64,000 nucleotides of DNA from the NCBI RefSeq assembly GCF_003337735.1, contig NZ_QPJY01000003.1:214712-278711 (forward strand), written 5' to 3'. This DNA is from Thioalbus denitrificans. Its GTDB lineage: Bacteria; Pseudomonadota; Gammaproteobacteria; DSM-26407. Every line of letters begins with the position of its first letter. Positions within the stretch are counted from its first letter, which is position 1. Position numbers and translations under genes: made by a program. Below the pieces are notes generated by a model. The model searched no databases. It saw only the letters and a program-made list of their open reading frames with translations, and had not been told where the DNA came from. Below, one piece after another: positions 14,518 through 16,726 of this stretch.

Positions 14518-15591
14518 TCAAGGCCGGTGCAGCGCCCCGAGCAGCGCGGCGACCAGGTCCCCGGGCGCCACGCCGGGCAGGTCGAGGCCGATCTCCGCCA
14601 CCGCCCCCGTGATGGCGGGGAGCAGCGCCGCCCCGGTCAGCTCGACGCCCCGCAGGCGCTGGGCCAGCGCCGCCACGCCATCATCGGGCAGGGCGGTGAA
14701 ATCCCCCTCGATGAGCAGGTCGTCGATGCGCCCGTCGCGCTCCCGCAGGATCACCCGCACCAGTCCGCCCGGCGCCTTGTGGAGCCCCTCGGTCAGGTGG
14801 GTTCCGGCGGCGATCTTCACCCCCATGGCGGCCCGCCGGCGGCCCAGCCGGTGGGTCCACTCCGGGTCGGCCAGCTCCGTCTCGGCGGCGCGGATGGCGG
14901 CCTCCTCGGCCGCCGTGGGACGGTCCTCCACCGCCGTGACGCCGAGGCACGTCTCCACCTGCTCCAGGAACAGGGTCTTGAGGTGCGCACGGCTCGGCGG
15001 TTGGTCCAGCTCGCGGCGCAGGGTGGTCATGTAGTCCCGCAGGGTGAGGCGCAGCTTGTCGCGGAACTTCTCCGAGGGAACGCGCACGCAGCGGGCCATG
15101 GTCTCGATGTCGAAATCGAACATGAAGCTGCCCACCATCACCGCCGCCGCCCCGATGCGCGCCGCGCCCGTGCCGCCGATCTTGCGGCCGTGGACATGGA
15201 TGTCGTTCACCGGGCGGAAGGCGGCCTCCACGCCCAGCGCCCGGTAGGTGCGCACCACCGGTTCGATGAAGCGGGGGTAGATCTCCACCGCCCGGGCGGG
15301 GACCTGCGCCGGTGGATAGATGAAGTGGAAAAACATCTGCCCGGCATCGAGGTAGACCGCCCCGCCGCCCACGTGGCGGCGGATGACCGGCAGCCCGGCG
15401 CCGCGGCAATAGTCCTCGTCCACATCCAGGGCCACCTCCTGGTGCAGGCCGATGCAGACGTAGGGGTCGCTGGGGTTGACCAGGCTGAGGACCGGGCCGT
15501 CGCCGGGCCGGAAAGCTTCCGCGAGCCCGTGGTAGACCGCCTGGGAGCGGAGGGCCGGAACACTGCCGAAGTCAATGACGCGCAACCGCAT
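14518..15591 (-). CDS. lplA: Lipoate-protein ligase A family protein
   Basis: A 357-residue biotin/lipoate ligase-fold protein. The lipoate-binding loop RRHVGGGAVYLD and the catalytic Lys in NDIHVHGRKIGGTG are present, so attachment or transfer of lipoyl groups to carrier proteins is likely. Residues about 240-357 form a C-terminal accessory domain as in LplA-type enzymes, with an additional alpha/beta extension. No lipoylated carrier gene is near. A predicted small RNA on the same strand ends about 105 bp upstream of its start. Confidence 0.86.
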   Translation of the reverse strand: MRLRVIDFGSVPALRSQAVYHGLAEAFRPGDGPVLSLVNPSDPYVCIGLHQEVALDVDEDYCRGAGLPVIRRHVGGGAVYLDAGQMFFHFIYPPAQVPARAVEIYPRFIEPVVRTYRALGVEAAFRPVNDIHVHGRKIGGTGAARIGAAAVMVGSFMFDFDIETMARCVRVPSEKFRDKLRLTLRDYMTTLRRELDQPPSRAHLKTLFLEQVETCLGVTAVEDRPTAAEEAAIRAAETELADPEWTHRLGRRRAAMGVKIAAGTHLTEGLHKAPGGLVRVILRERDGRIDDLLIEGDFTALPDDGVAALAQRLRGVELTGAALLPAITGAVAEIGLDLPGVAPGDLVAALLGALHRP

Positions 15592-15696
15592 GGGCGATCT
15601 CCACGGAAAGGTCGGGAATCGGGATTATGGCGGAGCCGGGCGGCGGGGTGAACCGAGGCGGCCAGCGGGCGTGGCGCGGGAGGGACCGCTACGGGC

Positions 15697-15733
15697 AAAA
15701 AAATGGTCCGCCTCCCGGGGAGAGGGGCGGACC
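15697..15733 (-). terminator. Rho-independent terminator of the predicted small RNA
   Basis: On the minus strand GGTCCGCC and GGCGGACC form a perfect 8-bp GC-rich stem with a 13-base loop, followed after one A by seven consecutive T residues. No minus-strand gene lies just upstream, so it must end a non-coding transcript. Confidence 0.85.
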
Positions 15734-15877
15734 GGCATTCTGAACGAGGCTACTTTTACCGTGGCCTGTGTCGCCACCACGACGCCAAGGGGGTCGGGGG
15801 GAGGCGTCATGACGCGCCACAGGTCGGCCAACCGGTGAAACCCGCGGACCGTCCGCCCGCCTTCACTGTTGGTTGCC
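15697..15877 (-). ncRNA. Predicted sigma-54-dependent structured small RNA
   Basis: About 180 nt on the minus strand, bounded by a sigma-54 type promoter and a strong U-tailed terminator, with no convincing reading frame. The expected start lies at GGGCAACC (15878-15871), right at the base of stem-loop 1 (CCAAC..GTGAA paired with TTCAC..GTTGG, 15828-15872). Stem-loop 2 pairs CCTGTG (15818-15823) with CACAGG (15765-15770) and GACGCC with GGCGTC, presenting a 16-nt loop UCCCCCCGACCCCCUU (15787-15802). That loop could base-pair with Shine-Dalgarno sequences. Stem-loop 3 is the terminator. Sigma-54-driven sRNAs are known (GlmY/GlmZ, CrcZ, NrsZ), but I cannot match this to any of them. Confidence 0.6.
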
Positions 15878-15884
15878 CTATAGA

Positions 15885-15902
15885 TAGCATTCTTTGTGCC
15901 AA
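15885..15902 (-). promoter_or_regulatory. Sigma-54 (-24/-12) promoter candidate
   Basis: On the minus strand TTGGCACAAAGAATGCTA shows the -24 GG and -12 GC separated by exactly ten bases; TTGGCAC is a full -24 match and ATGCT differs from TTGCT at one position. Palindromic GGCCATGATGGGCC lies about 45 bp upstream (15946-15959) and might be an activator site. Confidence 0.6.
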
Positions 15903-16303
15903 CAGGACATTCGTTGACAATCAATCGGTTACATAACGGCCTGTCGGCCATGATGGGCCATTTCACGCACTCTGGCGCGGCAATTCACCAGCCATGCCCG
16001 CAGTCACCCGCTGCGGAGGCCGTATCGGTACGCCAGTAGCCGGCCCGGGCAGGGGGGAAAACGCGCCGGGGGGGAAGCGTCCGGCGCAAGGAACCCCCGG
16101 GGCTTCATGGCCACCCGTTCACCGCTTGCACCTTCGCGTTGGATCAACCAATCCGCCAGGCATGACGGGGTCGCTTGCAGCGTTCCGGCGAAAACGGCAT
16201 TCTCGTGACCAGTTCACCGGCCGACGGCACCATCACCGCCTGCCGGACACGTCGACACCGGCTCCGCCCCGGCAGCGCATTGCCCACGCAGGAACCCGAG
16301 ACC
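15903..16303. other. Intergenic region without recognised gene
   Basis: Between the sigma-54 promoter candidate and the lipoprotein start at 16304 no reading frame has a good ribosome site or recognisable product. The palindrome GGCCATGATGGGCC at 15946-15959 is the only clear structure. Confidence 0.6.
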
Positions 16304-16726
16304 ATGAAACCGACGCCCCGCCCCAGCCATGCCCTGATCACCCTGGGCCTGCTCATGCTGCTCCTGGCCGGCTGCGCCGGCATGCAGCAGAGAGAGAGCC
16401 AGGATCGCTTCGAGGCCCGCCTGCGGGCCTTCGAGAACGCCGTGCGCTGGGGCGAGTTCCAGCTTGCCAACGCCCTGCACCGGCCGGGGGGAACCGTGTC
16501 GCCGGAACCGGACTACGATCGCCTGCGGGAGATACGGGTGACCGCGGTGGACCTGCTCGGGGTGCAATTCTCCCCCGCCGGGGACCGGGCCCACGTCCAG
16601 AGCCGCATCGACTACACCCACGAATACACCCAGCGGGTGCGCAGCATCGTCTACGAGCACGACTGGGAGCTGGATGTGGACGCCAAGGAGTGGTACCTCC
16701 TCTCCCCCCTGCCCGAGCTCGACTGA
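16304..16726 (+). CDS. Lipoprotein of unknown function
   Basis: A 140-residue protein with a lipoprotein signal (LITLGLLMLLLAGC, Cys about residue 23). The mature part contains a helix (RFEARLRAFENAVRWGEFQLANAL) followed by strands LREIRVTAVDLLGVQF, AHVQSRIDYTHEYTQRVRSI and WELDVDAKEWYLLSPLP, reminiscent of small NTF2-like or envelope-stress lipoproteins. The ATG at 16304 is chosen because it opens the signal peptide. It converges on the hydrolase gene downstream. Confidence 0.75.
   Translation: MKPTPRPSHALITLGLLMLLLAGCAGMQQRESQDRFEARLRAFENAVRWGEFQLANALHRPGGTVSPEPDYDRLREIRVTAVDLLGVQFSPAGDRAHVQSRIDYTHEYTQRVRSIVYEHDWELDVDAKEWYLLSPLPELD

Follow-up and report, generated by a model that had tools for sequence, protein, structure and literature searches.

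A putative sigma-54-dependent small RNA gene with a C-rich loop in Thioalbus denitrificans, conserved in a second species of the genus

The locus and its conservation

The window, i.e. the whole 64-kb stretch of DNA analyzed here (G+C 70%), is part of contig C3 of the Thioalbus denitrificans genome (G000; 4.14 Mb, 99.7% complete). On its minus strand, between lplA and a divergent lipoprotein gene, lie a -24/-12 promoter element and, behind it, about 180 nt with two stem-loops (SL1 and SL2) and a U7 terminator, as an earlier sequence-only reading had described. The C-rich loop which that reading placed in SL2 was recovered exactly. The features of the locus are listed in Table 1.

Table 1. Features of the small RNA locus, in window positions. 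G001 is the second species of the genus.
Feature	Position	Strand	Remarks
lplA, lipoate-protein ligase family (LplA)	14518..15591	-	downstream neighbour
Sigma-70-like lplA promoter TTCACC-17-CATAAT	15624..15652	-	read from sequence
Intrinsic terminator	15697..15735	-	stem 15733-15705, U7 15703-15697
Putative sRNA gene, ~175-182 nt	15697..15878	-	predicted start ~15878-15875, 3' end within U7 run
SL2	15759..15827	-	22 bp with interruptions, C-rich loop of 16 nt
C-rich loop UCCCCCCGACCCCCUU	15787..15802	-	predicted fold; same in G001
SL1	15828..15872	-	loop GGACG in G000, GGAGA in G001
Sigma-54 -24/-12 element TTGGCACAAAGAATGCT	15886..15902	-	GG-N10-GC; TGGCAC-N5-TTGC; identical in G001
Perfect IHF consensus AATCAATCGGTTA	15919..15931	+	30 nt upstream of TGGCAC
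Candidate enhancer TTGCCGNGCCNGAGTGNGTGAAATG	15959..15983	-	-82 to -58 from TGGCAC, spacing equal in both species
Small lipoprotein gene	16304..16726	+	divergent upstream neighbour; no Pfam match

The transcription start had been placed exactly at the base of SL1. The start predicted from the -12 box is indeed close to this position, but precedes the first SL1 pair by 3-6 nt. The whole RNA folded at -79.5 kcal/mol, a modest advantage over shuffled sequences (z -1.47; 12 of 200 shuffles equally good). The advantage was clearer for the copy in the second species (z -2.62; 2/200). The terminator was the strongest structural element (z -3.47, none of 200 shuffles equally good), and the single hairpins reached z values of -2.03 (SL2) and -1.87 (SL1). 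Among the 50 base pairs compared, in two sequences only, there was no two-sided change; one pair changed between G-U and A-U and one was broken.

The only relative found to keep the unit is the second species of the genus, whose assembly (87% complete) thus provided the sole comparison sequence. Between the -24 box and the final U the two copies agree at 198 of 206 positions, and promoter, SL2 and terminator show no change at all (132/132). The non-coding flanks are much more divergent, with identities of 19/37 (51%) just upstream, 118/220 (54%) further up and 26/45 (58%, with 11 gap positions) directly downstream of the terminator. The boundaries of the unit are therefore sharp, and its conservation against the flanks is overwhelming. 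The fourfold-degenerate sites of lplA, of which 203/219 are identical, served as a yardstick. The whole unit exceeds it modestly (8 changes in 206, P ~0.03) and the three change-free segments exceed it strongly (P 4.5e-5), these segments having been picked after seeing the data. On the far side of the upstream flank, the leader of the lipoprotein gene (16160-16303, plus strand) is conserved at 125 of 144 positions, against only 118 of the next 220 toward the sRNA.

Promoter and candidate activators

The -24/-12 element has the GG-N10-GC spacing claimed for it and differs from the strict -12 consensus in a single base (A instead of T). No second match to TGGCAC-N5-WTGCW with at most one mismatch occurs in the window. 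Shuffled windows contain on average 3.3 such near-matches; therefore the element alone is no proof. Genome-wide, the exact pattern occurred at 19 sites versus 3 for mirror-pattern controls in T. denitrificans, and at 7 versus 0 in the second species; many of the other matches precede classic sigma-54 genes, including nif genes and glnA. Sigma-54 and enhancer-binding proteins are both encoded: each genome gave one match for rpoN, and the sigma-54 activator domain matched 23 times (20 strong) in T. denitrificans and 17 times (14 strong) in the second species.

Upstream elements were scanned with the usual IHF, NifA and NtrC consensus sequences. Besides the IHF site of Table 1, the window contains no perfect match to the IHF consensus. 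In the second species a perfect consensus, AATCAACAGGTTA, stands at the same distance with different spacer bases. The spacing in both species equals that at nifU and nearly matches that of a gene for a small protein, presumably DsrE-like (L235, contig C1:399835, minus strand). The promoter of the latter, whose IHF site at -28 is also perfect, had the layout nearest to that of the sRNA among the promoters scanned. Further upstream, the candidate enhancer is a block of 25 bp at the usual enhancer distance. Even when 3 mismatches were tolerated, neither genome showed a second copy, and no perfect 5-base dyad was detected in this region.

An RNA of this kind might belong to the NtrC or NifA regulon and respond to nitrogen, working like NrsZ or NfiS. 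The sigma-54 promoter fits this idea, as does the IHF site placed as at nifU. Moreover, the starts of nifH, nifE, nifU and nifV sit behind sigma-54 promoters in T. denitrificans, so the host is probably a nitrogen fixer. However, neither TGT-N10-ACA (NifA) nor an NtrC palindrome was found within 260 nt upstream of the sRNA promoter in either species, the best NtrC candidate having 4 mismatches and occurring in T. denitrificans only. The same scan detected TGT-N10-ACA before all four of these nif promoters, and an NtrC palindrome upstream of glnA, in the two species alike, as well as before some other promoters. The nitrogen role considered in the sequence-only reading is thus not supported, and we regard a nitrogen-responsive RNA as unlikely. 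Since nitrogen-control sites are absent and the conserved block is private to this promoter, the activator is probably neither NtrC nor NifA.

NrsZ of Pseudomonas is likewise an intergenic sigma-54-dependent sRNA of similar length (~226 nt), but it is described as driven by NtrB/C and located between ntrC and PA5126 (PMC8395346). The present promoter lacks an NtrC site, and its gene is flanked by lplA and the lipoprotein gene; the two RNAs are set apart here by control and neighbourhood. The enterobacterial GlnZ is likewise described as dependent on RpoN and as part of the NtrC regulon (PMC9731577).

Two other sigma-54 elements of T. denitrificans were noted. The first (L253, contig C5:97138-97153, minus strand) has an NtrC palindrome with 2 mismatches 80 nt upstream and no gene called behind it on its strand; it may possibly drive a nitrogen-controlled transcript. 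The second (L233, contig C1:213804-213819, minus strand) is a perfect element, and an activator-domain gene (C1:214501) lies about 700 bp away. No clear long gene follows it; the frame present there, MCLDSLTIAGIVASLTITLLLFVFGRKGA, presumably resembles KdpF.

The C-rich loop and its candidate targets

C-rich loops have a precedent in sX13 of Xanthomonas, in which such loops (CCCC, CCCCC) are reported to base-pair with G-rich motifs close to start codons (PMC3771888). The present RNA resembles sX13 (RF02232) as a structured sRNA with a C-rich loop, but has one 16-nt loop instead of three short ones. It does not belong to that family: the model was not among the matches listed for the window, and the copy in the second species reached 14.1 of the required 50 bits. 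The same paper also describes HPnc5490 of Helicobacter and the UCCC-loop RNAs of Staphylococcus, whose C-rich loops act on G-rich leaders (PMC3771888). In contrast to the present RNA, these come from unrelated organisms, and their sequences were compared through Rfam only. By analogy with sX13, the loop would most likely act by pairing with G-rich ribosome sites. We take HPnc5490 to be the RNA also named RepG.

Complements of the loop core with at most one mismatch were not enriched in T. denitrificans (86 sites versus 129 mirror controls). Extraction returned 92 entries there and 56 in the second species, overlap duplicates included (86 and 54 in the count). Counterparts at the same place in the second species were found for 19 of the 92 entries, one of which is a duplicate and one the sRNA gene itself. 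Another is the ribosome site of an mraZ homologue (contig C1:748826), where GGGGGGUCGGGG stands directly before a UUG start and is identical in both species. This site, with the UUG, complements the loop over 11 consecutive bases, and it is unusual among the mraZ leaders of the class that were compared. The comparison covered 24 loci, of which 21 gave a start; L213, L219 and L224 did not fit the motif used. Predicted pairing reached -33.0 kcal/mol in both species; mraZ leaders of 19 other loci in the class gave -4.9 to -27.6 kcal/mol.

In a first sample of gene starts, none of 81 paired as well as mraZ. In a wider sample 4 of 345 (~1%) did, and so did 25 of 7108 stretches of the window; starts in both samples came from a simple custom caller, and some are wrong. 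At such a rate dozens of genes would qualify genome-wide, and thus no target stands out. The case for mraZ as the single target is weakened accordingly, and mraZ is a possible but unproven target, a candidate rather than a finding. An sRNA link to the division cluster has been described elsewhere, namely UpsM in the dcw cluster leader of Rhodobacter sphaeroides (PMC5089854).

Other complements were set aside. Two exact ones in T. denitrificans (C2:296667 and C2:297379) are antisense to genes or just past them, and a third complement (C1:740494) is antisense, between genes that we take to be petC-like and sspA-like. The exact complement in the second species lies within the promoter of a presumably msbA-like gene. 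A G-rich repeat family (GGGGGTTGGGGG) is complementary to the loop apart from one wobble, but it has the look of a palindromic repeat of a common type; palindromic elements containing it recur at C2:646931-716157 and C1:775752.

The lack of genome-wide enrichment would also suit an RNA that acts through a protein, for instance as a decoy that captures Hfq, CsrA or a cold-shock protein, its C-rich loop being no pairing site. The GGA in the SL1 loop of both species points in the same direction. However, by inspection only one GGA lies in a hairpin loop, versus the many that we take to be typical of CsrB/RsmZ-type RNAs, and there are no A-rich repeats of the sort CrcZ presumably has. In addition, no other invariant single-stranded segment of a hairpin is as long as the C-rich loop. 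A protein decoy therefore seems improbable.

Independence, distribution and proposed function

The RNA could instead be the long leader of lplA, ending in a transcription attenuator or riboswitch, as it lies directly upstream of this gene on the same strand in both species. Against this, a conserved sigma-70-like lplA promoter is predicted between terminator and gene, in a leader (15592-15651) that is identical at 57 of 60 positions in the two species. Furthermore, the poorly kept stretch described above separates terminator and promoter, no Rfam riboswitch matched and no antiterminator was found by eye. We consider an lplA leader very unlikely. Because lplA would carry its own promoter, the sRNA is, as far as sequence can tell, a separate unit.

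A frame of 113 aa (15966-15625, minus strand) runs across the unit. The 8 changes relative to the second species fall 1, 3 and 4 times on codon positions 1, 2 and 3, and the 132 invariant positions include all third positions within them. This spread, together with the invariant third positions, suggests that the frame is non-coding, in line with the initial claim that the unit holds no gene. A conserved small protein behind the sigma-54 promoter can practically be dismissed: the frame stays open through the unit in the second species (by eye), but the residue differs in 5 of the 6 codons affected although third positions take 4 of the 8 changes, SL2 and the terminator are invariant at their third positions, no ribosome site was found, and the frame continues through the terminator. 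With its own promoter, a terminator, no coding pattern and conservation as a unit, the locus has the composition of a gene for a trans-acting sRNA with an intrinsic terminator. The evidence for an sRNA driven by sigma-54 and bearing a C-rich loop is good.

No Rfam family was reached at threshold, which agrees with the first impression that the RNA resembles none that could be named. Low-scoring matches, on the correct strand and extending to the terminator, were obtained for ar14 (RF02344; 15.9 bits, cut-off 58.8), ErsA/Pseudomon-1 (RF01719; 13.4, cut-off 50) and BcKCsr2 (RF02883; 19.5, cut-off 40); the ar14 and ErsA models share C-rich loops and terminators with it. A covariance-model search of 369 genomes of the class gave no other convincing hit, and among 398 genomes of the phylum only T. 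denitrificans was recovered. One match (L034 in G202, E 0.0028) was rejected, being antisense to an apparent cobalamin riboswitch, judged by its motif. Scanning about 85,000 species with a promoter-plus-loop pattern retrieved the sRNA from the one genus only: among 23 loci, just L049, on a contig of the second species, matched the covariance model, and the other 22 were taken as chance. Plasmids, phages and viral contigs gave no match. For an RNA that evolves fast, these searches have little power: the model was built from two near-identical sequences, and class and phylum were sampled only. The searched set covers the host's order by the two species of one genus. Judged by these comparisons, the locus is very probably a new, lineage-restricted sigma-54 sRNA gene of a general kind already known.

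Altogether, we favor, with a probability of about 0.6, an independent sigma-54-dependent sRNA gene with an activator other than NtrC or NifA, whose C-rich loop represses G-rich ribosome sites in trans. An enhancer-binding protein other than these two would probably bind the conserved block, IHF would bend the DNA at its site, and sigma-54 polymerase would initiate a transcript some 180 nt long, which would stop at its own terminator. The SL2 loop (C6-GA-C5) would most likely pair in trans with G-rich ribosome-binding sites and lower the translation of several mRNAs, perhaps with Hfq. The hfq gene is encoded in T. denitrificans, and none was found in the 87% complete assembly of the second species. 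Quite unlikely, in our opinion, is the narrower proposal that a non-nitrogen, lineage-specific sigma-54 sRNA sets mraZ translation, its loop mimicking the ribosomal anti-Shine-Dalgarno sequence, and so links the cluster for division and cell wall to a sigma-54 signal.

NrsZ and GlnZ, the sigma-54 sRNAs encountered in the open-access literature searched, are tied to nitrogen (PMC8395346, PMC9731577). The 11-base match between the loop and the mraZ ribosome site offers a simple test of pairing. CrcZ, GlmY and the Qrr RNAs are sigma-54 sRNAs that answer signals other than nitrogen. Since local nitrogen-control sites are absent, this sRNA of a probable nitrogen fixer points to another sigma-54 signal that may reach translation.
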